Shown here in pieces: positions 1,012 through 13,359 of a stretch of DNA of 13,959 nucleotides; within the stretch, counting starts at the first letter, position 1, and each line of letters opens with the position of its first letter. The stretch is from Methanosarcinales archaeon (GTDB taxonomy: Archaea > Halobacteriota > Methanosarcinia > Methanosarcinales > Methanosarcinaceae), in the NCBI GenBank assembly GCA_012329085.1, contig JAAXQB010000282.1:1-13959 (forward strand), read 5' to 3'. The position numbers were made by a program, and so were the translations under genes. Under the pieces are notes generated by a model. The model had not been told where the DNA came from. It saw nothing but the letters and a program-made list of their open reading frames with translations, and searched no databases.

Positions 1012-1022
1012 TTTTTTATAGC
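1012..1022 (-). promoter_or_regulatory. Possible TATA box of the surface-protein gene
   Basis: The complement reads GCTATAAAAAAA, a plausible archaeal BRE/TATA core. It lies about 60 nt upstream of the ATG at 957, so a start roughly 25 nt downstream of the box would leave a short leader. Its BRE side falls inside the first arm of the hairpin repeat at 1021-1041. It was found by inspection only; other A/T runs nearby could also serve. Confidence 0.3.
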
Positions 1023-1093
1023 TCGTTCGGAACGAACGAGCGTTAGTATATAATTTATAGAATTATATACTGAGGGAAATTTCTAATTTCTCG
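1021..1093 (+). repeat. Intergenic triple-hairpin element, most complete copy
   Basis: Three hairpins follow one another. The first (1021-1041) has 8-bp arms GCTCGTTC/GAACGAGC and loop GGAAC. After GTT, the second (1045-1071) has a perfect 11-bp stem AGTATATAATT/AATTATATACT with loop TATAG. The third (1072-1093) pairs GAAATT with AATTTC inside a GAG...CTCG frame. The same three-part order recurs at 11993-12059 and, more decayed, at 8828-8900. A fragment of the 3' part (GTTAG, TATACT, GAGAA...TTTCTCG) is seen at 1401-1434. The structure is read directly from the sequence; the function is unknown. Confidence 0.8.
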
Positions 1094-1117
1094 ATTTTAT
1101 TTTCTACATTTGTATTT

Positions 1118-1317
1118 TTTTGATAGCACATTCAGAATGAATGTGCGTTAGAAAAAATCTTTGATTTTTGATAGCACATTCAGAATGAATGTGCGTAAAC
1201 ACTCATTCTTTTAGAATGAGTTAGAAAAAATCTTTGATTTTTGATAGCACATTCAGAATGAATGTGCGTAAACACTCATTCTTTTAGAATGAGTTAGAAA
1301 AAAATCTTTGATTTTTA
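1118..1317 (+). repeat. 73-bp tandem repeat array made of hairpin elements
   Basis: Two adjacent 73-bp units (1149-1221 and 1222-1294) appear identical by eye. They are preceded by a partial unit (1118-1148) and followed by another (1295-1317, with one extra A). Each unit holds three hairpins: an AT one (AAAAATC/GATTTTT, loop TTT), one with arms GCACATTC/GAATGTGC and loop AGAAT (1174-1194, 1247-1267; also 1126-1146 in the leading partial unit), and one with arms ACTCATTC/GAATGAGT and loop TTTTA (1201-1221, 1274-1294). The GCACATTC hairpin is followed by GTTAG in the partial unit and by GTAAAC in the full units. The units are contiguous, with no unique spacers. Confidence 0.9.
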
Positions 1318-1867
1318 ATTTTTTCATTATTGAACCACCATTTTAATTATTGAAAATTAACTATTAATTAATATGATTTTAAGAGAATAAATTATTTTTT
1401 GTTAGTTATACTCAGAGAATTTTTAAATTTCTCGTTTTATTAAATAATACTTTAAAATTGTATTTTTTGATTTTTTTACTAAATATGAAATACCTAATAG
1501 TTATTGAAATATTTAATATTATAATTATACAAATCTATTATTATTTCAATTAATTTTTTTTGTAAATTCTTGCAAATTTTCAATAGATTATTTGGCACTC
1601 ATTCTTAAAATTTTTTTCATTTTTTATTAATATTAAATATTATTTATGATAATATATAAAGTTAATCTATTATATAAAAAGTTAAAAAAAATATGGTATA
1701 ATTGATATGACATGACATAATATGAGTTAATAATCAATAGTAGATATTAAATTTAATATTTCGCATCCCTGACAAAAACAATAAACTGAATTTATAAATT
1801 TTGTAGATTTTTTTTTGTATTTTGTATTTTGTATTTTTAATTATATATAACTTATAAAGTTATATAC
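1318..1867. other. AT-rich gene-free interval
   Basis: About 550 bp of very AT-rich sequence with no coding frame I can support on either strand. It holds a decayed fragment of the hairpin element at 1401-1434 and a palindrome at 1844-1866 (10-bp arms TATATAACTT/AAGTTATATA, loop ATA). Half of an ACTCATTC hairpin appears near 1597-1604. No tRNA, rRNA or promoter is recognisable. Confidence 0.5.
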
Positions 1868-1871
1868 TTAC

Positions 1872-1938
1872 CACTCATTTATTCTGATACGCGTTAGAGA
1901 AAATTTTAATAGCTCATGATTGAACGAATGAGCGTTAT
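1872..1938 (+). repeat. Degenerate copy of the intergenic hairpin element
   Basis: The 1912-1933 hairpin has arms GCTCAT/ATGAGC around an enlarged loop containing TTGAAC, and it is followed by GTTAT. A more decayed hairpin with GCGTTAG lies at 1872-1896. Between them is GAGAAAATTTTAATAGCTCA, also present at 6740-6759 beside another copy. The element ends about 14 bp from the stop codon of the MFS-like gene. Confidence 0.65.
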
Positions 1939-1951
1939 CTCGTCCTTTTTT

Positions 1952-2548
1952 TTACTCTTGTATATTCACAATATCTTTAATCTTAAATAATAATGCAATT
2001 GCCACCAAATAAATAAGTGCTACAACAATTGCAATTAAAAGGAAATCGATATGAACACCTAATAATCCTGCACCAATCATGGCAAAACCAAATATGATAC
2101 CACTTGCACCCCAATAAGTGCCCATCATTCTTCCCCTATATGCAATGTGAGTAATATCTCCAAGATAAATTGCTTCAACTGTATCCCACATTCCACTTGT
2201 AAGACCACTAATTATCAACAAAATTATTATCCCAGAAACAATAATCACTAGATTTATTTCAATTATTACAATCAATGGAAATGCTAAAAAAACGAATACA
2301 CTTACTATCAAACTAATAAGTAAAAATGGCTTTCTACCATATTTATCAGATAATTTTCCAGCAAAATAAGCACCAAAAGAATCTGCAATCATTGAAATAC
2401 CAAGTCCTGATCCCATAAGAGCCATTCCACCCATATCAAATAAAAATGCAATTAAAAATGGATGAAATAAGCCATCAGCAAATGCTGTTAATACACATAC
2501 TATAAACATTTTTTTATAATTAGAATAACCTTCTATTTTTTTATACAT
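1952..2548 (-). CDS. Half-size (six-helix) MFS-like membrane protein
   Basis: This 198-residue membrane protein has about six hydrophobic segments (roughly 14-36, 42-63, 74-96, 99-120, 143-164, 168-190). The loop after the second carries GKLSDKYGRKP (about 64-74), the motif A signature between helices 2 and 3 of the major facilitator superfamily. Full MFS transporters have about 400 residues and 12 helices, so only the N-terminal half is present. The adjacent sequence past the stop is a hairpin repeat and AT-rich DNA, with no sign of the second half. It may be a truncated transporter or a short protein acting as a dimer. The ATG at 2548 is preceded by AAGGT (complement of 2559-2563) at about 10 nt and by a TATA-like box near 2600. 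The substrate cannot be inferred. Confidence 0.7.
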   Translation of the reverse strand: MYKKIEGYSNYKKMFIVCVLTAFADGLFHPFLIAFLFDMGGMALMGSGLGISMIADSFGAYFAGKLSDKYGRKPFLLISLIVSVFVFLAFPLIVIIEINLVIIVSGIIILLIISGLTSGMWDTVEAIYLGDITHIAYRGRMMGTYWGASGIIFGFAMIGAGLLGVHIDFLLIAIVVALIYLVAIALLFKIKDIVNIQE

Positions 2549-2596
2549 GATGATAATTACCTTTTATTTCTATTTGTATTAACATCTTTTTTATGT

Positions 2597-2606
2597 CATA
2601 TATAGC
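2597..2606 (-). promoter_or_regulatory. Possible TATA box of the MFS-like gene
   Basis: The complement reads GCTATATATG about 50 nt upstream of the ATG at 2548. A start near 2576 would give a leader of about 28 nt that contains the AAGGT ribosome-binding site. The assignment is by spacing and sequence only. Confidence 0.4.
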
Positions 2607-2740
2607 AATAACATACTCATAAAATTTTAAAACATATTACAATATACATTCCATCAAATGTTATGCTATTTTACATAACTTACCAACAATTTAAAAAATT
2701 AAGTAGAAATTTACCAAAACAATTTAATATCACGCTTTAC

Positions 2741-2779
2741 ATTAATATATCATAAAAAAGCACAAGTAATATTACGGAG
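2741..2779 (+). promoter_or_regulatory. Promoter and ribosome-binding site of ileS-mptE
   Basis: ATTAATATATCATA at 2741-2754 is a plausible TATA box. A start about 25 nt downstream (near 2772) would place GGAG (2776-2779) very near the 5' end of the transcript, 12 nt before the ATG at 2792. The region 2549-2740 between the two divergent genes shows nothing else I can name. Confidence 0.45.
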
Positions 2780-2791
2780 ATTCCATAAAAA

Positions 2792-5700
2792 ATGATAAAA
2801 GAAATATCCAATCAATATAATGCAAATGAGCTTGAAAAAAACATTCATGCATTATGGGATGAAATTAAAGCATACGAAAAAGCACGAAATAAAAAAGATG
2901 GACCAAACTTCTTATTTGTGGATGGTCCGCCATATACTACAGGAAATATACACCTTGGCACAGCATGGAATAAAATATTAAAAGATTGTGTATTGCGACA
3001 CCGCTCTATGAATGGCTTTCATGTTATAGAGCGCGCAGGTTGGGATATGCATGGATTGCCAATTGAAGTTAAAGTCGAAGAATTGCTTGGATTTAAATCA
3101 AAAAAAGATATTGAAGAATATGGTGTTGGAAATTTTATAGAAAAATGCAAAGAGTTTGCATTAGATAAAAAAGACAGCATGACTGAGCAATTTAAGATGC
3201 TTGGAGTGTGGCTTAATTGGAAAGAGCCATATATGACCCTAAAAAATGAATATATTGAAGCTGCATGGTGGGCTATTAAAAAAGCAGATGAAAAAAATCT
3301 TGTTGAAATTGGAAAGCGGGTTGTCAATTGGTGTCCTAGATGTGAAACTGCAATTGCAGATTCTGAAGTTGAATATAAGAATAAGAGAGACCCATCTATT
3401 TATATAAAATTTGAATTGAAAGATTTTAAGAATACATATCTTGTAATCTGGACTACGACACCTTGGACAATTCCTGCAAACATGGCAGTAGCTATAAATC
3501 CTAAATTCGAATATTCAAAAGTTAAAGTGATTAAAAAAGATGGGGAGCTATGCGAATATTTAATAATTGCATCAGATCTTGTTGAAGCTGTTGTTAAAAA
3601 AGGAGGCTATGAATCCTATGAAATTATTGAAATCATAAAAGGTGCGGATTTAAAGGGTGCATATACTCACCCACTTGTAGATTTAGTGCCAAAACAGAGT
3701 GAATTTGAACATAATATTTATCCTGCAAATTTTGTCACTTCTGAAAATACAGGTTGTGTGCATATAGCAACAGGGCACGGCATGGATGATTTTGAAATTG
3801 GTATTAAAAATAACATTCCGATATTTTGTCCAGTTGGATCAAATGGCAGCTATACGGATATGGCTGGAAAATATGCAGGAATGGATATAAGAGATGCAAA
3901 TAATGAAATAATGTCTGATTTAGAATCAAATGGTCTTTTACTGTTTAAAAGTTCAATATCTCACAGGTATGGACATTGCTGGCGATGTAAAACTCCGATA
4001 ATATATCTTGCAACAGAACAGCTATTTGTTAAAATACCAGAGATTAAAGAAGATATGCTTTGCGAAATTGAAAAGGTAAAATGGCATCCAGATTGGGCAG
4101 GTTCTGCACGATTTAAATCGTGGGTAGAGGATGCAAGAGATTGGTGTGTTTCAAGGCAAAGGTATTGGGGAATTCCAATTCCAATATGGAGATGTGATTC
4201 TTGCAATATTCAGCATGTAATTGGTACAAAAAAAGAACTTATAGAAAAAACAGGTGCAGACCCATCAATTGAATTACATAGACCTTACATAGATGAGCTT
4301 ACTATAAAATGCGAGTGTGGAAAAGATATGAGTCGCACAGAAGATGTGTTTGATGTGTGGTTTGATTCTGCGGTTGCATCATGGGCAACTCTTGATTTTC
4401 CGCATACTGATAAAGACTTTAATAAATATTGGCCAGCTGATTTCATCACAGAAGGGCATGATCAAACGCGCGGATGGTTTTATTCACAAATGGGAGCAAG
4501 TATGATTTCGCATGGCACGGCACCATATAAAACTGTTCTCATGCATGGATTTACTCTTGATAAAGATGGTAAAAAAATGTCAAAAAGTATTGGAAATGTC
4601 ATCACTCCAATCGAGGTTATAGATAAATATGGGGCAGATGCATTAAGGGCATATATTTTGTCTGCAAGTGCTCCATGGGAGGATGTGAAATTTATATGGG
4701 ACGAAGTTGCAACCATCCATAGAACACTGAATATTTTTTGGAATGTGTATCGATTTCCGATTCCATACATGGTGCTTGATAAATTTAATCCAATGGAAAT
4801 TTCGTTTGAATCTGTGCAACCTAATTTGCGTAAAGAAGATAAATATATTCTTTCATGTTTAAATTCATTGATTGAAAGCGTAGATCTATCGATTGATAAA
4901 TATTTGATACATAAGGCAATCCGTTCAATTAATGAATTTATCGTGGAAAAAGTATCGAGATGGTATATACCTCTTGTGCGACCGCGAACTTGGACTGAAT
5001 CGGATGACCCTGATAAACTTGCTGCATATAGAGTGTTGTATGAGGTAATGGTCACAACTTCAAAGCTTATGGCACCATTTATGCCACATATTGCAGAGGA
5101 GATATATCAAAATCTTGTAGTGAATGTCGAGAATAATGCACTTGAATCTGTGCATCTTTGCGATTGGCCTATTAAAAATGATGCTCTTATCGATAAAAAA
5201 CTTGAATTATCCATAGAAATTACGCGATCTATTGTAGAAGTTAATGCAAATCTTAGACAAAAAGTTGGAAGAAAACTTAGATGGCCTGTGTCAAAAATTG
5301 TGATAATTCCTAATAAAGATAATAGAAATGTGTATGAAGCTGTTGAAGGTATGCGAACAGTGCTTATGAGTCAAACAAATTCAAAGAATATTTTGCTTGT
5401 TGATGCGTGGGGTGAAGTTGGGAAAGAGATTGTTCCAAACATGGGATTGCTTGGACCTGCATTTAAAAAAGATGCAAAGGTTGTGGCTAATGCATTAAAA
5501 TCTAATGATTGCGAACTTGTATTTAATTCAATAAAGGATAATGGCAATTTTATGCTTAATATTGATGAAAGAATTGTTGAAATTACAAAAGAAATGGTAA
5601 GTTTTAGTGAGACAATTCCAGAGCTTGTTGTGAAAGGAGAATTTGAAGGTGGGCAAATATTTGTAGATGCAAGATTAACGCCAGAAATTGAGGCAGAAGG

Positions 5701-5962
5701 ATATTCACGGGAAGTTATTAGAAGAATACAGGATATGCGAAAAGAATTTGGTCTTGCAGTTGAAGACACTATTGAGGCATATGTTGAAATAAAAGATGAG
5801 CGAGTTGTTGAATTTGTGTCTTCTTTGAAGGAGTATATTGCAAAAGAAGTTCGTGCAGATTCTTTGGAATTTGAGAGTGATGTTGAAGTCAAGGGCAAAT
5901 TTTTGAAAGAATGGAGTGTTGAAGGGATTGTGATAAATATCGGTATTTCAAAAATAGTATGA
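2792..5962 (+). CDS. ileS: Isoleucyl-tRNA synthetase
   Basis: A class I aminoacyl-tRNA synthetase that charges tRNA-Ile with isoleucine using ATP in the cytoplasm. At 1056 residues it has the usual archaeal/eukaryotic-type length. The ATP-binding signature is present as [13 protein letters not shown] (HLGT at 54-57) and KMSKS at 595-599. The CP1 editing domain carries TTTPWT (221-226) and [14 protein letters not shown] (ATGHG at 326-330), whose acidic pair 332-333 includes the expected editing Asp; most relatives have Pro where Thr327 stands. Cys pairs CPRC, CWRC and CDSC/CECG suggest zinc sites. The anticodon-binding helical domain follows KMSKS, with a C-terminal extension to the end. GGAG 12 nt before the ATG supports this start. 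The stop overlaps the ATG of mptE by 4 nt, so the two are probably co-transcribed. The gene looks intact. Confidence 0.97.
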
Positions 5963-6594
5963 ATTTTGAATTGTGGAATCCAATCTATCAAAAAATTCTT
6001 GATGATTTTAAATTTGATAGAAAAGCAGATGATTATGCGGCAAAGATTTTATCAGATATGATAATTAAAAGAGATGATTTAATTGATAGAGCTGTGTTTT
6101 TAGATATTGTGAATGGAAAAGATGTAATTGTGTGCGGAAATGCACCTTCTTTAAAAGATGATATTGAAAGATTGGATTGTGCAAATTTTGTGATGATTGT
6201 TGCAGATGGTGCAACGACTGTTGTATTGGATTCTGGAATTGTTCCTGATATTATTGTGACAGATCTTGATGGGGATGTTAAGCGGGAAGTTTTAGCGAAT
6301 AAGAGTGGTTCGGTGGTTGTTATCCATGCACATGGAAATAATATTGATGCATTAGAGAAGTGGGTTCCGTTATTTAATGGAATATTATGCACAACTCAAT
6401 CTAAACCATTTGGATCTTTGCATAATTTTGGAGGATTTACGGATGGGGATCGTGCTGTATATATTGCATATGAGTTTAATGCAAAGAACATTAAGCTTGC
6501 TGGGTTTAATTTTGAAGATTTGGATGTGACTGATATGAAAAAAAAGAAATTGAAATGGGCAAAATATTTGATTGGTAGATTAGATTTGAAATGA
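5959..6594 (+). CDS. mptE: 6-hydroxymethyl-7,8-dihydropterin diphosphokinase, MptE type (DUF115)
   Basis: MptE transfers diphosphate from ATP to 6-hydroxymethyl-7,8-dihydropterin, an early step of tetrahydromethanopterin synthesis in archaea; it is unrelated in fold to bacterial FolK. The 211-residue protein shows the DUF115 signatures in order: [10 protein letters not shown] (56-65), VADGAT (81-86), [11 protein letters not shown] (96-106), HAHGNN (123-128) and GFTDGDRA (159-166). The C-terminus is basic ([10 protein letters not shown]). The start ATG overlaps the ileS stop (ATGA), indicating translational coupling. T-rich stretches follow within 70 nt, suggesting the transcript ends there. 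The gene looks complete. Confidence 0.9.
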
Positions 6595-6601
6595 TGGTAA
6601 C

Positions 6602-6660
6602 TTTTTTATTTTTTGAGCGGAAAAAATTTATTTATATCATTTTTGTCGATTGTTTTTTTT
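6602..6660 (+). terminator. T-rich transcription end after mptE
   Basis: TTTTTTATTTTTT (6602-6614) and a run of eight Ts (6653-6660) lie within 70 nt of the mptE stop on the coding strand. Archaeal RNA polymerase terminates at such oligo-T tracts without a strict need for a hairpin. This is an inference from composition in a very AT-rich background. Confidence 0.35.
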
Positions 6661-6682
6661 ATCTGAAATAAAATATACAAAC

Positions 6683-6779
6683 ACTCAAACTTTTCAAAAT
6701 GAGTTTTAGAAAATCTTTGATTTTAGTATTATGCAATAAGAGAAAATTTTAATAGCTCATTTAAAACGAATGATCGTTA
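6683..6779 (+). repeat. Decayed copy of the intergenic hairpin element
   Basis: At 6683-6704 ACTCAAAC pairs imperfectly with a 3' arm ending in ATGAGT around a TTTTC loop, followed by TTTTAGAAAATCTTTGATTTT as in the 73-bp units. At 6755-6775 arms GCTCATTT/GAATGATC flank AAAAC, with one mismatch and one G-T pair, followed by GTTAT. GAGAAAATTTTAATAGCTCA precedes it, as at 1896-1915. This copy lies between the convergent mptE and hepT genes. Confidence 0.65.
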
Positions 6780-6825
6780 TTTCGCAATACGATTACCACA
6801 CGATAAATTATAAGTTATTAATGTT

Positions 6826-6965
6826 TCGGAGATGTGTGAAGTTTATCCACAAAGTGGGTAAATTTGGACATAGCCGAAGGCGAAGCCACATATCCGCCTA
6901 TTATAAGTGACTCCAATAGGAACAAGGTGCGAAGCACCGCAGAGTGCCCAAGCCAGCTAACATCA
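6826..6965. other. GC-richer structured segment of unknown nature
   Basis: About 140 bp clearly richer in G+C than the surrounding intergenic DNA, abutting the 3' end of hepT. It contains small perfect hairpins (GGTGC/GCACC with loop GAA near 6928-6940; GGC/GCC with loop GAA near 6890-6898). On the minus strand one frame stays open across it and ends in FVDKLHTSPKH before a stop, but I see no start or recognisable domain. It could be a structured RNA, a remnant of transferred DNA or a repeat end. I do not recognise it. Confidence 0.35.
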
Positions 6966-6974
6966 TCTCTGATT

Positions 6975-7317
6975 TTATTCCAAATCTTTTAACATTTTCT
7001 CAAACAATGGTTTAATGCCGGGTATTCTCTTTTTAACTGTATCCCAGACAACTTTCATATCTACCCCAAAATACCCATGGATTACTTTGTCCCTCATTCC
7101 CGCCATCCCCTTCCAGGGAACTTCGGGATATTTTTCCCTTACATCTTCAGGTATGTTCTTAACCGCCTCGCCGATTATCTCAATTGCCCTTACAACAGCA
7201 AAAACAGTCTTAGAATCTTTAAGTGAATTCATCATAAGATATACCCTCGACAAACTGTGATGCTTTATTCATCGCATTAATGATATCCTCAACGAAATCT
7301 CCTATTTCCCTTTTCAT
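6975..7317 (-). pseudogene. hepT: HepT-type HEPN ribonuclease toxin, frameshifted
   Basis: HepT is the HEPN-domain RNase toxin of type VII HEPN/MNT toxin-antitoxin systems. An ATG at 7317-7315 overlaps the stop of mntA (ATGA) and encodes 31 residues of a normal HepT N-terminus (MKREIGDFVEDIINAM..., ending ISYDEF), then a Thr and TAA at 7221-7219. One base further the family sequence resumes as [20 protein letters not shown] and runs to a stop at 6975. Removing one base near 7224 gives a continuous 113-residue protein of standard length. The catalytic RX4HXY motif is intact as RDKVIHGY (R75, H80, Y82 after repair). A shorter product starting at an internal ATG (7253) would have 92 residues but lack helix 1. 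The gene is either a recent pseudogene, an assembly error or a rescued frameshift. Confidence 0.8.
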
Positions 7318-7622
7318 AAATATACAACCTCCTTTAAAATCCGTTTTCCTATCCTCGGCTTGAGAGCTGATTTTATCACTAGATCAACTTTTGTTCCTAA
7401 TAAATCTGACAAATATTCTTCAAGCTCAACAAATTTTATTAGATCCATCTCAGCTTTTGGATAAAATTCAATTAGAATATCAATATCACTGCTTTTTTTA
7501 TGTTCATCCCTTACATAAGAGCCAAATATCCCAATTTCCTTAACACCAAATTTTTTCTTAAGCTTTTTTTCATGACTTTCAAGAACAGCCTTTATTTCAT
7601 CAAGTGATTTATCTGATATCAT
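7314..7622 (-). CDS. mntA: MntA-type minimal nucleotidyltransferase antitoxin
   Basis: A 102-residue minimal nucleotidyltransferase. The active-site motif GSX10DXD is present as GSYVRDEHKKSSDID (G34, S35, D46, D48), with a third acidic residue at D80 (TKVDLV). In characterised pairs the MNT protein AMPylates a Tyr in the RX4HXY motif of HepT and so blocks the RNase; this partner is encoded immediately downstream with a 4-nt overlap. The ATG at 7622 is preceded by AAGGTG at 5 nt (complement of 7628-7633) and by a TATA-like ACTTATTTAAAGG. All catalytic residues are present, so the antitoxin seems functional although its toxin gene is frameshifted. The pair is more GC-rich than the flanking genes, consistent with horizontal transfer. 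Confidence 0.9.
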   Translation of the reverse strand: MISDKSLDEIKAVLESHEKKLKKKFGVKEIGIFGSYVRDEHKKSSDIDILIEFYPKAEMDLIKFVELEEYLSDLLGTKVDLVIKSALKPRIGKRILKEVVYL

Positions 7623-7627
7623 ATTTA

Positions 7628-7666
7628 CACCTTGTTTTGTGATTCTATTCCAACCTTTAAATAAGT
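7628..7666 (-). promoter_or_regulatory. Promoter and ribosome-binding site of mntA-hepT
   Basis: The complement of 7654-7666 reads ACTTATTTAAAGG, a BRE/TATA-like box. About 25 nt downstream the complement of 7628-7633 reads AAGGTG, a Shine-Dalgarno sequence 5 nt before the ATG at 7622. The short leader implied is typical of archaeal mRNAs. Confidence 0.45.
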
Positions 7667-7689
7667 TATCATATCGGGGCTTGGGAATT

Positions 7690-8592
7690 TCACTTAACTA
7701 CCGATATTCTTTCAAATACCGTACCTTTCGTTGCATGTATTTTTCCATCGACCCTTGCAGTTTCATGGATTGTCACAAATTGTGCATTAATATTACCAAG
7801 AATATGACTTTTTTCCCCAATATATATCTCCTTTTTTGATTCAATATTACCATGTATTGAATTTTTCATTCCAATAGTTAAATTTTGCTTTGTTTTAATG
7901 CTACCATATAAAATATTATTAGACTCCATATCAAAAGATTTTGCACGGATATTACCAATTAGCCTGCAATCGTTTCCTATAATTGCATGATCTGGAACAG
8001 AAATTAAATCATTTGAGATTTTTGATTCATATGGAATGATCATAATTTTATTTTCAAAAATAGCATCTTGAATTTCCATAGATTTGTAATTTTTTTCTAT
8101 TTCCTCCTCTTCCTCATCTTCGATTAAATCTTCGAGTGCTTTTTCTACTTCTTCATCTTTTCCAAGTCGCAACATTTCATTAATATACAAAAATAAAAAT
8201 ACCATCATTGGAATTGGGTTTCTAATTGTGATATTCCCTTTTGCTTCAAATCCTTCATTTATTCTTACATCGTCCCCAATATCTAAATTTCCAGAAACTT
8301 TCAATCTACCTTTTATTGTCACAAAATCTCCAAAATATGCATTTTCTTTTATTTCTACATCCCCATCTATTTCAGACCACATATCTATTTTAGCATCGGA
8401 TTTGGTGGTAATATTACCATTCACTTTTACCTTTTCTCCAATAATTACAAAATCTGAGATAAGACCATAAAATATATTGGAATGTCCTCCTATGATTATT
8501 CCATTTTCTACAATAATTGAATTTGCTTCCATTATCGTATTATCGGGAATTATTAATTTATTTAAAAATTCTTTTTTTGTAATATATATCAA
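7690..8592 (-). CDS. Double-domain bactofilin (polymer-forming cytoskeletal protein)
   Basis: A 300-residue archaeal bactofilin-type protein. Residues about 15-125 form the first right-handed beta-helix, with regularly spaced turns (IIGEKVKVNGNI, AYFGDFVTIKGRLKVSGNLDIGDDVRI). Residues about 125-145 are hydrophobic (NPIPMMVFLFLYI), and 145-168 are strongly acidic and helical (DEEVEKALEDLIEDEEEEEI). Residues about 185-295 repeat the beta-helix (IIGNDCRLIGNIRAKS, LTIGMKNSIHGNI, HILGNINAQF). Bactofilins polymerise without nucleotides into membrane-associated scaffolds; the role in archaea is not established. The chosen start is a TTG at 8592, because the resulting MIYITKKEFLNKLIIPDNT matches the conserved N-terminus of archaeal relatives; the first in-frame ATG would remove about 20 residues of it. 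It lies downstream of mmp11 on the same strand, across a 378-bp repeat-rich gap, so it is probably a separate transcript. Confidence 0.85.
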   Translation of the reverse strand: MIYITKKEFLNKLIIPDNTIMEANSIIVENGIIIGGHSNIFYGLISDFVIIGEKVKVNGNITTKSDAKIDMWSEIDGDVEIKENAYFGDFVTIKGRLKVSGNLDIGDDVRINEGFEAKGNITIRNPIPMMVFLFLYINEMLRLGKDEEVEKALEDLIEDEEEEEIEKNYKSMEIQDAIFENKIMIIPYESKISNDLISVPDHAIIGNDCRLIGNIRAKSFDMESNNILYGSIKTKQNLTIGMKNSIHGNIESKKEIYIGEKSHILGNINAQFVTIHETARVDGKIHATKGTVFERISVVK

Positions 8593-8970
8593 CTCTATGT
8601 AAAATCTTGATTATTTTTAGTGCTAACATAAGTATTATATTTTTCTATTCATTATAATATTTAAATTTTTTTTTTGCAATATTATTGTATGGTGTATTAT
8701 CAAATTTTTTATAGCACATTCAGAACGAATGAGCGTAAACATTCGTTCTTTCAGAATGAGTTTAAGAAAATCTTTGATAGATCATTTGGAACAAATAATC
8801 GTTTGCACATTCGGAACGAATGGGTGTTATTCGAACAAACGAGCGTTAGTATATAATTTGTAACATTGCGTGCTAAGAAAAATTTTCAATTTTTCAGCAT
8901 AAGTTTCATATTGTCAATAATAACACAATTTCACCATATAAAATCATAAGACTAAATCAATAATATCATA
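8593..8970. repeat. Intergenic cluster of hairpin elements
   Basis: This gene-free gap holds five successive hairpins of the family. 8714-8734: arms GCACATTC/GAATGAGC, loop AGAAC. 8741-8761: ATTCGTTC/GAATGAGT, loop TTTCA. 8780-8800: GATCATTT/AAATAATC, loop GGAAC. 8805-8825: GCACATTC/GAATGGGT, loop GGAAC. 8828-8843: a truncated form ending AAACGAGC. The last is followed by GTTAGTATATAATT (as in the complete element), a decayed second stem, and GAAAAATT/AATTTTTC with loop TTC at about 8878-8896. Arms here are imperfect, so this is an older copy. The short frame crossing 8674-8856 consists of repeat sequence and is not counted as a gene. Confidence 0.75.
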
Positions 8971-9867
8971 TTAAAATTTAACTGATAAATCAGGTTTTGC
9001 AAACCAGGGAATAGCTGCAAGTGCACCAATTATTCCATCACCATTAAGTAAAACTTGAACGCTATTTTTTTTGATAGATTCGAGTGCATCATCTCGTGTA
9101 ATCTCTCGACTTCTACATTTTTCACTATATCCATTTAAACAATCTGCATTAAATCCAGAATATGCAACCATACCTGTTTCTTTTGATACACTGTATTTTA
9201 ATAAAGCATTCTTTATATTTATAATAATTTCATTTTTTACTTTTTCATTCACACATGCAAATTCAAGTACAATAGAAACACAGTTTTGAGTTTTTCTATC
9301 AACTGGAAATAATTGTACAATAGAATGAGATAGGTATATGGATTCATTACAACTTAATGCTTTTGCAATATTATGAGCAAGTGCCCATGTTGCACCTTCG
9401 TCTTTTGTATCTGTGTCATCAACTCCAATTAACAATCGTTCTCGCCTTGGAATTATGATGGTTCCTTTTGCAGCCCTACCACCCCCAGAAGTTGTTATGT
9501 TGTAATCAATTACGCCATCAGCCATTGCCCTACATTTTGTTGCACCAACACCTCCTCCCCCAAGTCCAGCATAAGTAACTTTTACAAAATTTCCCTCTAC
9601 ACTAATAGACTCAATACCAGCTGGCATTATAGATGATTTTAGATTAAGTTTTGATTTTTTTACTTTTGCAAGATATCGCGTTGTAGTTCCAAATGAATTT
9701 ATTTGTTGAACAATTGGGCTTTGTAAATAATGGTGTTTAGCCCATGCTGCCCCACCATAACAATTTGTATCTTCAATCAACTCCACATATTCATTATTGG
9801 AATCGCATATTGCATATATTCCTTTGTAAGGTATTGCGTAAGGGTCATTAAGTTGTACTTCTTTCAT
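8971..9867 (-). CDS. mmp11: Methanogenesis marker protein 11
   Basis: A 298-residue protein of the methanogenesis marker 11 family, found in methane-metabolising archaea and of unproven biochemical role. Diagnostic stretches are YGGAAWAKHHYL (37-48), a glycine-rich GLGGGGVG (101-108), SGGGRAAKGT (127-136), and IGVDDTDTKDEGATW (147-161). The last resembles the DDTDS-type acidic motif of the TiaS (tRNA-Ile2 agmatinylcytidine synthetase) C-terminal region, and the middle half of the protein looks related to that fold. The length agrees with the family and no defect is visible. No Shine-Dalgarno is seen before the ATG; a TATA-like box about 30 nt upstream suggests a leaderless transcript. It is divergent from the PspA locus. 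The family call is confident; the function is open. Confidence 0.88.
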   Translation of the reverse strand: MKEVQLNDPYAIPYKGIYAICDSNNEYVELIEDTNCYGGAAWAKHHYLQSPIVQQINSFGTTTRYLAKVKKSKLNLKSSIMPAGIESISVEGNFVKVTYAGLGGGGVGATKCRAMADGVIDYNITTSGGGRAAKGTIIIPRRERLLIGVDDTDTKDEGATWALAHNIAKALSCNESIYLSHSIVQLFPVDRKTQNCVSIVLEFACVNEKVKNEIIINIKNALLKYSVSKETGMVAYSGFNADCLNGYSEKCRSREITRDDALESIKKNSVQVLLNGDGIIGALAAIPWFAKPDLSVKF

Positions 9868-9891
9868 TCATTTATAAATTGTGTGCCAACA

Positions 9892-9904
9892 CTTAAATAT
9901 TTTG
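9892..9904 (-). promoter_or_regulatory. Possible TATA box of mmp11
   Basis: The complement reads CAAAATATTTAAG, centred about 30 nt before the ATG at 9867. A start 25 nt downstream falls within a few bases of the start codon, matching the lack of a Shine-Dalgarno and implying a leaderless mRNA. Confidence 0.4.
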
Positions 9905-9935
9905 TGCAACTTAAATTTAATTATAAATTATTGTT

Positions 9936-9982
9936 GGTATAATATATATGCAACATTAACAAAATAAAATTAATAAACGGAG
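9936..9982 (+). promoter_or_regulatory. Promoter and ribosome-binding site of the PspA locus
   Basis: GGTATAATATATATGC at 9936-9951 is a TATA-like box. A start near 9970 would leave a leader of about 20 nt holding GGAG (9979-9982), 8 nt before the pspA ATG. The whole divergent mmp11/pspA spacer is only 123 bp, so regulators of either gene would have to bind here. No clear operator repeat is visible. Confidence 0.45.
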
Positions 9983-9990
9983 TTAAAAAT

Positions 9991-10692
9991 ATGGGACTTA
10001 TAGGTAGAATGAACACGATTGTAAAATCAAAAATGAATAAATTATTAAATAGATATGAAGATCCAAGAGAAACACTAGACTATTCTTATGAAAAACAGCT
10101 CGAACTATTAAGGAATGTTAAAAGAGGTGTTGCAGAGGTTACTACAGCTAAAAAAAGACTTGAATTGCAAAAAAAGAAACTTGAACAAAATATTGTAAAA
10201 TTAGATAGCCAAGCTCGAAACGCATTAAAATCAGATAGAGAAGATTTGGCACGAATTGCTCTTGAACGAAAAAGTAATTCAAAATTAGAAGTAGAATCTC
10301 TTGAACAACAAATTAAAGACATTCAAAAAGAACAAGATAAATTAGTAGCAACTGAACAACGGCTTGCTGCAAAGATCGCAACATTCCGCACTACCAAAGA
10401 AACTATTAAAGCTAAATATAGTGCCGCAGAAGCTCAGGTTAAAATTACAGAATCTGTAAGTGGAATTAGTGAAGAAATGAGTGATGTAGGGCTTGCAATG
10501 CAAAGAGCACATGATAAAACAGAAGATATGACAGCTCGTGCATCTGCTCTTGATGAATTAATAGAATCTGGAACCTTAGACGATTCTATGGGTGTAGAAG
10601 GAGATGACATTGATAAAGAGCTTGCAAAAATACAAACAAAAAGCGATGCAGACAATGAACTTGAAGCATTGAAAAAGGAGATGAATAAATGA
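9991..10692 (+). CDS. pspA: PspA/IM30 (Vipp1) family membrane-stress protein
   Basis: PspA/IM30 proteins belong to the ESCRT-III superfamily: they form coiled-coil hairpins that polymerise on stressed membrane and limit proton leakage. The 233-residue protein begins with an amphipathic helix (MGLIGRMNTIVKSKMNKLL), then EDPRETLDYSYEKQLELL, the conserved DP-x-x-x-L-x-Y entry to the long helices. A continuous coiled coil spans about 26-145, a third helical part about 150-190 (ISEEMSDVGLAMQRAHDKTEDMTARASALDEL), and an acidic linker precedes a final short helix. GGAG lies 8 nt before the ATG. The stop overlaps the next ATG by 4 nt, so pspA and pspAA are translationally coupled. The gene is complete. 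Confidence 0.93.
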   Translation: MGLIGRMNTIVKSKMNKLLNRYEDPRETLDYSYEKQLELLRNVKRGVAEVTTAKKRLELQKKKLEQNIVKLDSQARNALKSDREDLARIALERKSNSKLEVESLEQQIKDIQKEQDKLVATEQRLAAKIATFRTTKETIKAKYSAAEAQVKITESVSGISEEMSDVGLAMQRAHDKTEDMTARASALDELIESGTLDDSMGVEGDDIDKELAKIQTKSDADNELEALKKEMNK

Positions 10693-10967
10693 TTGTAAGG
10701 ATGATGGGAGAAGGTCAATACGAACTTGATAGTGAGTGTATTAAAGAAGTTAATAAAATCGATAATGAAATTACTGATTTTGTAGAAAATGATGATGCTG
10801 AATCATTTAAAACTTCATTTTTAAAAATGAAAGAATATATAAGAGCAAATGGGGATAAAATTCCAGATGATGTCATAAAACCAAGTGAGTTAGTTATTCC
10901 ACCATGCGATCTTACGATTGAAGAGGCAAAGAAATTGTTTAAGGATGATGGGATGATACCAGATTAA
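10689..10967 (+). CDS. pspAA: PspA-associated protein PspAA
   Basis: A 92-residue protein matching the PspAA family, small proteins encoded beside pspA in archaea and some bacteria. It opens with MIVRMMGEGQYELD, the family's N-terminal signature, continues with the helical stretch EVNKIDNEITDFVENDD and ends with PSELVIPPCDLTIEEAKKLF...GMIPD, the usual P-S-x-L-x-x-P-P-x-D and terminal I-P. There is no signal peptide or membrane segment, so it should be cytoplasmic. Partnership with PspA is inferred from conserved gene order; its molecular action is not established. The ATG overlaps the pspA stop. The gap to the next gene is 67 bp. Confidence 0.87.
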   Translation: MIVRMMGEGQYELDSECIKEVNKIDNEITDFVENDDAESFKTSFLKMKEYIRANGDKIPDDVIKPSELVIPPCDLTIEEAKKLFKDDGMIPD

Positions 10968-11034
10968 AGACATTTACTTGAGATTTAAGTTTTAAGAATT
11001 ATAGGATTACTTAAATGTAGGAAATGGATATAAT

Positions 11035-11969
11035 ATGAAAAAATGGAATAAAGATTACGGATTGCAATTTAGAATGGTGCTTACGATATTTTTGCTTGTC
11101 GTAGTGTATTTATTCTTTTTAGCACTGATGGGAATAATTTCATATATAATAGTGTATAATATTATGTATATTAGTGGCATCAGTGATATTATGATTATTT
11201 TTATAGCATTCATGATTGGTATATTAATATTGCTTTCATTTTTCCAATTCTACTCAGATAATATTGCTTTAAAATGTATGGGTGCAGAAATTATTACTGA
11301 ACAAGAAGAGCCACACCTTCATGAAACTGTATCAAGACTTTGTGCAATTGTAGATTTACCAAAACCAAAAATTGCAATAATAAAACAAAACATTCCAAAT
11401 GCATTTACAACAGGTAAAAATGAAAAAAGTGCAGTTATTGCAGTCACAACGGCACTTATGAAAGAATTAAATCAATTAGAACTTGAAGCAGTCATTGCAC
11501 ATGAATTGAGTCATATTAAAAATAAAGATATAGCAATAATAACGATTGCAAGCTTTTTATATATTGCCGTATTCTTTTTTGCAGAAAAAAATAAAAAATT
11601 TTTTGAAACAGATTGTTTTTAACATTCATGGGAAGCGGCATAATGTGGATGGCAACTAATATAATATGGAATGCAAGTTCAATATTACTTAGTGCTTTAT
11701 CACGATACAGAGAATTTTCAGCAGACAAAGGTGCGGCAATGATTACAGGAAAACCATCCGATCTTGCATCAGCATTGATTAAAATTAGTGGAGTGATGAA
11801 TAGAGTCCCATCATACGATTTAAGAAAAATGCAATGTATGAATGCATTTTTTATAATTCCTGCAAGGGATAAAAAATCTATAATGGATGTATTTTCCACT
11901 CACCCAAATATTGAAACAAGAATAAAAGCACTTTTAAAACTTGAAGAAAGTTTAGAGGTTTTGCAATGA
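11035..11969 (+). pseudogene. htpX: First htpX copy (M48 zinc metalloprotease), frameshifted
   Basis: This is a paralog of the intact htpX at 12472, identical over the first 14 residues (MKKWNKDYGLQFRM) and similar throughout. The first frame (11035-11622, 195 residues) has N-terminal membrane helices and the HELSH zinc motif at 156-160. It then reads FFAEKNKKFFETDCF and stops (TAA 11620-11622). The remainder continues in the -1 frame (to 11969) with SRYREFSADKG, whose Glu is the third zinc ligand, and FSTHPNIETRIKAL. Re-joining the frames at the T run 11616-11620 restores a protein of nearly the same spacing as the intact copy (57 versus 58 residues from ASFL to SRYREF). As it stands neither piece has all three zinc ligands. 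The stop TGA overlaps the ATG of a pspAB stump. It is most likely a decaying duplicate, but an assembly error in the A/T runs is possible. Confidence 0.8.
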
Positions 11970-11990
11970 GATTTTTTAGGTATTTTTGGA
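11966..11990 (+). pseudogene. pspAB: Stump of a duplicated pspAB
   Basis: The junction after the first htpX reads GAGGTTTTGCAATGAGATTTTTT, against GAGGTTTTGTAATGGGATTTTTT at the intact htpX/pspAB junction (13348-13370): two differences in 23 bases. The TTTTTGGA that follows is also shared, with a 2-nt gap. The encoded MRFFRYFW corresponds to MGFFDALFG of PspAB. Similarity stops at 11990, exactly where the hairpin element begins (TAGCTCG from 11991). The rest of pspAB is absent. Confidence 0.7.
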
Positions 11991-12059
11991 TAGCTCGTTT
12001 GGAACAAACGAGCGTTAGTATATTAATTTATAAAATTATATACTGAGAGAAATTTCTCG
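11991..12059 (+). repeat. Intergenic triple-hairpin element, second complete copy
   Basis: 11993-12013 has perfect 8-bp arms GCTCGTTT/AAACGAGC with loop GGAAC, a compensated change from the copy at 1021. After GTT, 12017-12044 forms AGTATATTAATT/AATTATATACT (one bulged T) with loop TATAA. 12047-12058 is the palindrome GAGAAATTTCTC. Order, spacing and orientation match 1021-1093. The element sits between the pspAB stump and unrecognised sequence before the second htpX. Confidence 0.8.
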
Positions 12060-12322
12060 TTTCAAGCTTTATCAATCGTATAATAAATGGCACATTTGAT
12101 AATTGGCATACTTTTGTTAAACCACATTCTTTTATTTTTCGTATGATTGGACTAATGATTTTTATAATATCCGCGCATATAGTTTTAATGAATATATGCA
12201 TAAAAACTCGCCATTTTATATACACAAAAATAATATGTAGTATGGTTGATCTTTGTGGTTTAATAGTACGGATTGGAATATCTATTGTGAGGGCATATTT
12301 ACACCAAAACCATTTACAATAG
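12047..12322 (+). other. Open hydrophobic frame, possible remnant of a membrane-protein gene
   Basis: The frame is open for 91 codons and includes an ATG at 12143 (59 residues from there). It reads FVKPHSFIFRMIGLMIFIIS, AHIVLMNICIKTRHF and so on, with one clear membrane-helix-like stretch. It overlaps the following hydrophobic frame at 12253-12450 in another register, so the two may be pieces of one frameshifted gene. There is no recognisable domain and no ribosome-binding site. In such AT-rich DNA, hydrophobic frames also arise by chance. Confidence 0.25.
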
Positions 12323-12471: not shown

Positions 12472-13359
12472 ATGAAAAAATGGAATAAAGATTATGGATT
12501 ACAATTTAGAATGATATTTACAATGTTTCTGCTTGCCGCAGTATATTTATTCTTTCTAATATTTTTAAGCACAGTAATGGGAGTGGGAACTCATATACTT
12601 ATTGCATTTATGGGCATATTTTTATTTGTACAATTTTATTATTCAGATAAGATTGCTTTAAAAAGCATGGGTGCAAAAATTGTGACTGAACAAGAAGAAC
12701 CACATCTTCATGAGATGATTTCAAGGCTTTGTGCAATTGCAGATTTATCAAAACCAAAAATTGCCATAATGCAAAGTAGCATTCCAAATGCATTTGCAAC
12801 AGGTAGAAATGAAAAAAACGCAGTTGTTGCAGTCACAACAGCACTTATTAACAAATTAAATAAATCCGAACTTGAAGCAGTTCTTGCACACGAATTGAGC
12901 CATATTAAAAATAAAGATATGGCTGTGATTACAATTGCAAGCTTTTTATCCACTATTGCAGCTTTTCTTGTACAAAATATGTTATTTTTTGGAATGGGGG
13001 GTAGAAATAGTAAAGGTGGAGGCGCAATGATTGCAATATGGGTAGTATCACTTATAGTTTGGGTTGTGAGTTTTATATTAATTAGAACGTTATCACGATA
13101 TAGAGAATTTTCAGCAGACAAAGGTGCATCAATTATTACTGGAAATCCATCTCATCTTGCATCAGCATTAATGAAAATTAGTGGAGTGATGGACCGAGTT
13201 CCATCACAAGATTTAAGGAAAGCAGAAGGTATGAATGCATTTTTTATAATTCCTGCAATGAATAAACAATCTATAATGAATTTATTTTCCACGCATCCAA
13301 CAGTTGAAGCAAGAATAAAAGCACTTTCCCGCCTTGAAGAGAGTTCAGAGGTTTTGTAA
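12472..13359 (+). CDS. htpX: HtpX-type M48 membrane zinc metalloprotease, intact copy
   Basis: HtpX proteases sit in the cytoplasmic membrane and degrade misfolded membrane proteins. The 295-residue protein has N-terminal helices at about 12-34 and 38-55, then EEPHLHEMISRLC and the catalytic HELSH at 140-144 (two zinc His and the general-base Glu). Further hydrophobic segments lie at about 153-175 and 186-205, followed by SRYREFSADKGA with third zinc ligand E212. The terminal FSTHPTVEARIKAL (272-285) is the usual M48B ending. All catalytic residues are present. The stop TAA shares its last base with the ATG of pspAB (TAATG), so the two are coupled. Between the helices a glycine-rich loop (GMGGRNSKGGG) is well preserved, unlike in the first copy. 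This is probably the only working htpX of the locus. Confidence 0.93.
   Translation: MKKWNKDYGLQFRMIFTMFLLAAVYLFFLIFLSTVMGVGTHILIAFMGIFLFVQFYYSDKIALKSMGAKIVTEQEEPHLHEMISRLCAIADLSKPKIAIMQSSIPNAFATGRNEKNAVVAVTTALINKLNKSELEAVLAHELSHIKNKDMAVITIASFLSTIAAFLVQNMLFFGMGGRNSKGGGAMIAIWVVSLIVWVVSFILIRTLSRYREFSADKGASIITGNPSHLASALMKISGVMDRVPSQDLRKAEGMNAFFIIPAMNKQSIMNLFSTHPTVEARIKALSRLEESSEVL

Follow-up and report, generated by a model that had tools for sequence, protein, structure and literature searches.

Two co-occurring families of short covarying hairpin repeats, possibly mobile, in the archaeal class of Methanoperedens and Methanosarcina

Why do short hairpins recur between the genes of an archaeal contig with arms that change in step from copy to copy? 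The DNA in question, hereafter the window, is the whole stretch of contig JAAXQB010000282.1 in the Methanosarcinales archaeon assembly GCA_012329085.1 (13,959 bases, 31% GC). A preliminary description of the window, made from its letters alone, reported a dispersed family of intergenic hairpins and left open whether selection acts on the paired form or copies spread as hairpins. We found that the window holds two hairpin families, the hairpin of that description (family B) and the AT-rich hairpin that follows GTTAG (family A), and that both recur in related genomes. The best explanation, to which we assign a probability of about one half, is that families A and B are co-occurring short, non-coding, non-autonomous mobile repeats, similar to REP and PATE elements, in the class that contains Methanoperedens and Methanosarcina.

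Plus-strand family B hairpins are present where they had been reported, nine in all (starting at 1021, 1126, 1174, 1247, 6755, 8714, 8780, 8805 and 11993), together with one interrupted copy at 1911 and one truncated copy at 8824. The hairpin itself is as described, but its dimensions are not: instead of 8-bp arms and a 5-nucleotide loop, the stem is 9 bp long and, in 8 of the 9 copies, is capped by a GAA triloop, the closing pair being broken at 8714 and the loop being AAA at 6755. This closing pair varies from G-C to A-T with the GAA loop unchanged. GATA precedes the hairpin, and GTTAG or GTAAAC follows it. The arms stay paired in the family as a family, but 4 of the 8 aligned copies (6755, 8714, 8780 and 8805) have 1–2 unpaired positions each; pairing is a trait of family B as a whole more than of each site. 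A covariance model built from eight of the window copies (R1) recovered three copies outside its training set, at 1194–1234 (minus strand, E = 1.5e-6), 1267–1307 (minus strand, E = 7.4e-6) and 1899–1940 (plus strand, E = 3.1e-5). R1 also revised what had been said of the downstream sequence. An AT hairpin does follow GTTAG, at 1021, ~8848 and 11993 only; what follows GTAAAC (at 1201 and 1274, with a weak case at 8741) is the family B hairpin in inverted orientation, giving the inverted pairs 1174/1201, 1247/1274 and, more weakly, 8714/8741. A TA-G hairpin pattern, composed after the copies had been seen, matched the window 8 times, as compared with a mean of 0.105 and a maximum of 2 in 200 random windows of the same dinucleotide content. 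As first described, the copies lie between plausible genes, the sole overlap noted being with a likely spurious 60-amino-acid frame that starts with TTG (8674–8856). The family B features of the window are:

1021–1041, plus strand: family B hairpin, 9 bp, GAA loop (R1 57.3 bits, training copy)
1126–1146, plus strand: family B hairpin (R1 57.1 bits, training copy)
1174–1194, plus strand: family B hairpin, first member of an inverted pair (R1 55.9 bits, training copy; 73-nucleotide tandem repeat with the next pair)
1201–1221, minus strand: family B hairpin, inverted partner of 1174 (R1 minus strand 37.2 bits, non-training)
1247–1267, plus strand: family B hairpin, first member of an inverted pair, same letters as 1174 (R1 55.9 bits)
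1274–1294, minus strand: family B hairpin, inverted partner of 1247 (R1 minus strand 34.4 bits, non-training)
1911–1932, plus strand: family B copy with an insertion within the hairpin (R1 31.8 bits for 1899–1940, non-training)
6676–6717, minus strand: weak inverted family B candidate (R1 17.1 bits, E = 0.1)
6755–6775, plus strand: family B copy, two mispairs (R1 47.2 bits, training copy)
8714–8734, plus strand: family B copy, two mispairs (R1 54.1 bits, training copy)
8741–8761, minus strand: inverted family B partner of 8714 (R1 19.9 bits, E = 0.022)
8780–8800, plus strand: family B copy, one mispair (R1 52 bits, training copy)
8805–8825, plus strand: family B copy joined to 8780, one mispair (direct repeat D5; R1 just 17.4 bits despite being a training copy)
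8824–8848, plus strand: truncated family B copy (direct repeat D5, 68%)
11993–12013, plus strand: family B hairpin, GCTCGTTT/AAACGAGC (R1 56.1 bits, training copy)

The architecture of family A is clearest in a relative. Compared by isoleucyl-tRNA synthetase, the closest relatives among the genomes examined are G181 (71% identity, residues 1–855) and G182, G183, G185, G186 and G187 (66%); Methanococcoides methylutens has a synthetase with 77% identity to the one in G186. The window AT hairpin at 1047–1069, after GTTAG, was found with identical letters in G183. We sampled 400 kb of G183 in 20 stretches, mostly contig beginnings, with four placed at R1 or synthetase matches, and counted 71 perfect hairpins (at least 8 bp, loop of 3–5 nucleotides) as compared with 20 in one shuffle. 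The family A unit is ~62 nucleotides long and consists of an AT-rich 9-bp hairpin followed by a longer hairpin (helix 2), which contains a tandem G-A mismatch and in most copies ends in a GNA or GNNA tip; the order of the unit in G183 is TAG or TTG, AT hairpin, GTCC, CGAG-tc-AATnn-GA-nn-loop-nn-GA-nnATT-tt-CTCG. Units are chained head to tail at ~61–63 nucleotides in G183 and its relatives. The second hairpin follows 100 of 103 AT hairpins, and 11 of 114 second hairpins lack a good AT hairpin by script, with a remnant visible by eye in 10 of those 11 (counts from 154 loci in 1.43 Mb, some overlapping). The tandem G-A mismatch is kept in 83 of 103 copies. A family A model built from 16 G183 copies only (R2), which also models a 12-nucleotide flank, matched the window at three places, where the tip of the second hairpin has been lost; its lower matches in the window are the palindromic reverse of two copies and one chance-like match within a gene (E = 0.42). 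The family A features of the window are:

1047–1093, plus strand: family A double hairpin, AT hairpin at 1047–1069 and then a GAG/CTC hairpin whose tip is shortened (R2 32.4 bits, E = 1.5e-4 for 1035–1097)
1388–1438, plus strand: possible family A remnant (71% identity to 1047–1097; no R2 match)
1844–1866, plus strand: family A AT hairpin, one arm pair compensated (R2 29.1 bits, E = 6.3e-4 for 1832–1898)
8850–8900, plus strand: degenerate family A copy (67% identity to 1047–1097; no R2 match at E ≤ 1)
12018–12059, plus strand: family A double hairpin, second hairpin shortened (R2 25.2 bits, E = 0.0035 for 12007–12063)

Compensated arm changes are present in both families. Among the window copies of family B they affect 5 of 9 pairs, with 9 double-change cells, a score reached in none of 500 shuffles. 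For 103 family A copies from 11 genomes, 96.4% of cells were paired and double changes occurred in 15 of 20 pairs (209 cells); none of 500 shuffles reached this score, and slid controls gave at most 26 double-change cells. The 16 G183 copies used for R2 had 35 double-change cells (0/500 shuffles), and their helix 2 alone had 27 (0/500 shuffles), a fairer case than the model-aligned rows: these copies were picked by eye for an AT hairpin and similar sequence after it, and pairing of helix 2 was not a criterion. Left out of this set were L060:15437, which has an AT hairpin and nothing like the second, L057:6392, which has both, and matches without either flank. Model-aligned family B copies (42 distinct copies among 47 rows) had 53 double-change cells (0/500 shuffles). 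A lack of covariation beyond that expected from shared ancestry, which would have counted against the preliminary description, did not occur: covariation exceeds all shuffles and slid controls.

The repeats were also expected beyond the window, and relatives contain many copies. When 237 class genomes were scanned under strict filters and 20 candidates were scored in each, R2 matched 36 at E ≤ 0.01, of which 31 reached 1e-5; the single weak matches in G009, G010 and G014 may be due to chance. A rerun with up to 121 candidates scored recovered 36 of the 36 positive genomes and none of 4 controls, with at least 1416 matches in all. Copy number per positive genome ranged from 1 to at least 121; eight genomes had at least 100 copies, five of these at least 121. 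Across an even sample of the phylum, class members included (12 candidates scored per genome), R2 matched 6 of 392 genomes at E ≤ 0.001, and 4 of these 6 were members of the class. Lone family A matches (E ~1e-6) in G055:C177 and G073:C66 (loci L100 and L101), genomes otherwise without the family, are possible transfers.

Family B required a model of wider origin. R1 with strict filters had no match in the 237 class genomes, and with laxer filters, applied to 20 genomes, its matches were all weak, with the family B arrays of relatives at E = 0.26 to 0.9; the best of these weak matches (G184:C102, E = 0.03) is not among the G184 matches of the wider model and may be due to chance. Inspection of the weak matches pointed to the family B arrays and, by way of a scan of G183 for hairpins, to the AT hairpin. 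That model (R3), built from copies of the window, G181, G183 and G186, detected family B in 19 of 26 family A genomes tested as compared with 1 of 12 others (p = 0.0003, a statistic that ignores kinship among positive genomes), or in 16 of 23 when the three training genomes were omitted. In relatives, family B is a ~21–23-nucleotide hairpin, often in arrays with 26-nucleotide steps, and the window family B is likely homologous to it. Such arrays occur at G186:C15:16049–16168, G187:C216, G016:C52 and G027:C104; those inspected resemble 13-mers of GATAG plus 8 nucleotides, the 8-mers being alternately near-complementary. The TA-G pattern had 10 matches in 1.17 Mb of positive genomes as compared with 2 to 6 after shuffling, and none in 0.28 Mb of other genomes; by itself it is weak evidence in relatives. 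A distant BLAST search of plasmid and phage records returned three short, chance-like pieces only, and a search of viral contigs with two patterns returned no match.

By our own simple gene calls, 94 of 103 family A copies are intergenic, as compared with ~15% of bases. Convergent, divergent and tandem spacers are occupied in proportion to their length (p = 0.75, 79 copies with a gene on both sides), and a role as terminator or promoter was rejected because all three kinds of spacer are used by length. Orientation within contigs looks mixed by inspection, with no replication-strand rule visible, although no formal test was made. A T-tract precedes 50 of 69 unchained family A copies as compared with a background of 5.9%; the split into chained and unchained copies was made by pattern, and some chains were missed. 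The sequence TTTTTGATAG is a common flank of both families. Three sites are filled in G181 and empty in G183 (L103/L066, L113/L056 and L116/L065), with T-tracts also at the empty G183 sites; we infer gain in G181 rather than loss in G183, with data compatible with either direction. The number of units has changed at one locus, where G183 has two and G187 one. Mean identity is 0.759 within genomes and 0.727 between them, a difference reached in none of 500 label shuffles; 8 of 11 genomes exceed the between-genome mean, two of them on the basis of one copy pair each. This pattern fits lineages of two sorts, some with recent turnover and others with subfamilies that are old and mixed. Of the two explanations originally offered, the data favour the spread of copies, with mobilisation that depends on the fold, because several settled window copies are mispaired and empty sites exist.

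An excess of G-U over A-C pairs suggests folding of a single strand by itself, whether RNA or single-stranded DNA. Duplex DNA would offer both strands alike, yet on the plus strand G-U exceeds A-C by 54 to 19 in family A (21 to 6 in helix 1 and 33 to 13 in helix 2, with one lineage-specific helix 1 pair left out) and by 17 to 8 in family B. Of the 103 helix 2 tips, 61 are GNA and 18 are GNNA, and 17 of the 18 tetraloops are GNYA, with one GNRA. When they sit on two or more G-C pairs, GNA and GNNA tips form extraordinarily stable DNA mini-hairpins, according to PMC4686876. Family B tips in relatives fit this recipe less well, with GNNA or GNA in 19 of 42 copies and ANNA in 17 of 42. The folded acid is presumably DNA.

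Taken together, the observations can be accommodated in a mechanism in which copies insert on the 3' side of a T-tract (TTTTTGATAG) and an enzyme recognises the fold of one DNA strand, presumably in single-stranded form. Mainly foldable copies would then spread, and their arms would drift in compensated pairs. The 3' end of family A (ATTTTCTYG) resembles the T-tract target, and we propose that head-to-tail chains arise for this reason, the element probably targeting itself. A bolder version, in which elements of ~62 nucleotides or less are class-wide single-stranded-DNA hairpin transposons, recognised by their stable GNA/GNNA mini-hairpins, with the two families sharing the target signature TTTTTGATAG and one non-RAYT enzyme moving both, is in our judgement doubtful.

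Several results weigh against mobility of this kind. The repeats could be linked to no transposase. Matches to Y1 transposases, the enzymes that move REP and PATE elements, were found in 29 of 36 positive genomes and in 138 of 201 negative ones (p = 0.17), and there was no Y1 match in G187 (120 copies), G184 (40), G078 (15), G027 (11) or G025 (10), assemblies that are possibly incomplete. R2 gave three weak matches, the best at E = 0.0029, in 30 Y1 loci of positive genomes (up to 1.5 kb on each side), a search that covered family A in short loci of incomplete assemblies. No family A unit split by a gene, as a parent element would be, was found in 1.43 Mb. The copies in G181, G183 and G078 are no more alike than copies across genomes. 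The edges of the empty sites are blurred by divergence, with no clear target duplication at the three sites, and the T-tract figure is inflated by the 12-nucleotide flank included in R2. Alignments A5, A7 and A8, which were fitted to their models, tilt toward the structures. The G-U excess, which counts cells rather than independent events, and the short loops fit RNA too; 24 of 103 helix 2 tips are neither GNA nor GNNA, ATA being the commonest of these, and standard folding parameters single out GNA tips neither for DNA nor for RNA. As to the mover, the conserved ends seen at 20 IS200-type genes do not, on visual comparison, look like family A; elements with TnpB only lay outside this comparison. 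An IS200 or RAYT enzyme is therefore unsupported by the presence, the loci or the ends of Y1 and IS200-type genes. The target of ISDra2 is TTGAT, a fact that plays no part in the argument here. A REP-like function is plausible.

An alternative that we consider unlikely is that the repeats are transcribed RNA elements, small RNAs or structures of untranslated regions, whose RNA fold is bound or processed. The plus-strand G-U excess and the conserved tandem G-A mismatch would both suit RNA, and the G183 consensus as RNA folds better on the plus than on the minus strand (-17.8 vs -14.4; as DNA, -10.6 vs -9.4). Against this, the folded plus strand is antisense in 30 of 44 copies between codirectional genes (p = 0.02), convergent or divergent spacers are not preferred, all but one of the 18 tetraloops are GNYA rather than the GNRA preferred in RNA, Rfam gave no match, and chains and empty sites are atypical of a riboregulator. 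Binding sites of a chromosome-organising or DNA-processing protein, kept for a function of the host, would likewise be numerous, mostly intergenic, palindromic and present in several lineages of the class. This explanation is quite improbable given that 201 of 237 class genomes had no match (E ≤ 0.01, strict filters), that copy number varies so widely among the positive genomes and that the window includes degenerate copies.

We regard as about equally improbable a scenario in which copying or mismatch repair in hairpins at stalled forks homogenises the arms without selection, leaving the repeats as neutral debris. Template switching would fit the chains, the inverted pairs, the 26-nucleotide arrays and the change of unit number at one locus; however, by itself it explains neither the T-tract flank nor the intact two-hairpin unit, and it would be expected to erase the conserved G-A mismatches through arm correction. 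Non-autonomous mobile repeats remain the reading that we prefer.

How do such repeats compare with known systems? Bacterial REP and BIME sequences with their RAYT transposases, and the GTAG- and CGTC-tagged palindromes of bacteria, are alike in being short hairpins with stems of 5–13 bp, complementary variants and short loops, in occurring in single, dimeric and clustered forms, and in being intergenic, of high copy number and often with G-T pairs, as described in PMC3733652 and PMC2817692. Here too we found many intergenic copies in paired and clustered forms, with inverted pairs in the window. Unlike REP, they have no conserved GTAG or CGTC tag (before 103 family A copies, GTAG occurs 24 times, GTGG 1, GTTG 23, ATTG 15 and ATAG 12; T[AT]G 84), and family A is an archaeal double-hairpin unit with no transposase gene found flanked by repeats (30 Y1 loci, family A). 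The repeats are not members of the bacterial, RAYT-type REP family, because they have neither a conserved GTAG head nor a transposase tied to them. In the 2013 survey of bacterial palindromes (PMC3733652), "archaea" appears in the reference list only, and the six archaea with palindrome counts in PMC12306157 include none of this class according to its table.

The PATE and SMR elements of Haloquadratum walsbyi are also archaeal and transposase-free, with near-terminal palindromes (PATE) related to those of an IS605-type element, and are themselves targets of mobile elements; PMC3119063 reports a 52-bp form and no target duplication. PATE also lacks terminal inverted repeats. Unlike PATE, the repeats studied here are ~62 nucleotides or less, mostly hairpin, strongly covarying and spread over many genomes of a class, and in the loci inspected we saw no IS605-type relative that shares their palindromes. 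Mobile-looking short hairpins in spacers are also described from mitochondria, as repetitive hairpin-forming elements in sponges and as double-hairpin elements in fungi, in a different domain of life; the likeness is one of description. A CRISPR array was rejected on inspection of the sequences: the arms vary while the linkers recur, and the 26-nucleotide steps have no spacers.

The preliminary description knew of no named family that matches, and none was found here. No window sequence matched Rfam at gathering thresholds, and loci L060, L062 and L065 at E ≤ 1 matched nothing but a tRNA; a literature search, with subscription journals mostly outside it, found no apparent description of these repeats. 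Bacteria are known to have mobile hairpins of the REP kind, together with the transposases that serve them; here, a covarying, strand-asymmetric double hairpin occurs in many genomes of a methane-cycling archaeal class. With no REP-type transposase linked to it, such a family would suggest either that its mobilising enzyme is new or that it is a new structured RNA of archaea, and the structure model can be used to test both readings in existing metagenomes and transcriptomes. The repeats may also partly explain the broken assemblies of these archaea.

Some family A copies have themselves been altered. An insertion sequence with ends like GAGGCTGTCCAACAATCC lies inside the AT hairpin, apparently at TATA, at L057:6330–6578, L069:9488, L064:14901 and L156:13076, so that family A is itself a target of another mobile element. 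At L144:5075–5189, a unit is broken by another hairpin-like stretch (TCGGACTCCTTGAACGTGAGTCC), a possible nested repeat. Larger paralogous spacers of G183 at L053:2865, L067:19564 and L059:12660 contain two, two and no family A units, respectively.

The contig is AT-rich and Methanosarcinaceae-like. Its genes encode an archaeal-type isoleucyl-tRNA synthetase, MptE-like, TiaS-like, PspA-like and bactofilin-like proteins, and HtpX-type peptidases, with 98% identity between the window HtpX and one public HtpX labelled Methanosarcinaceae archaeon. The HtpX-type genes are duplicated in tandem (11035–11969 and 12472–13359, 85% over 300 nucleotides), with the first copy broken into two frames and one family B/A pair between the duplicates. 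A HepT/nucleotidyltransferase pair at 6839–7622 adjoins a stretch with small inverted repeats that is seemingly richer in GC than its surroundings and was possibly imported. Finally, an MFS transporter frame of 198 amino acids at 1952–2548 covers profile positions 1–173 of 347 and is likely truncated.

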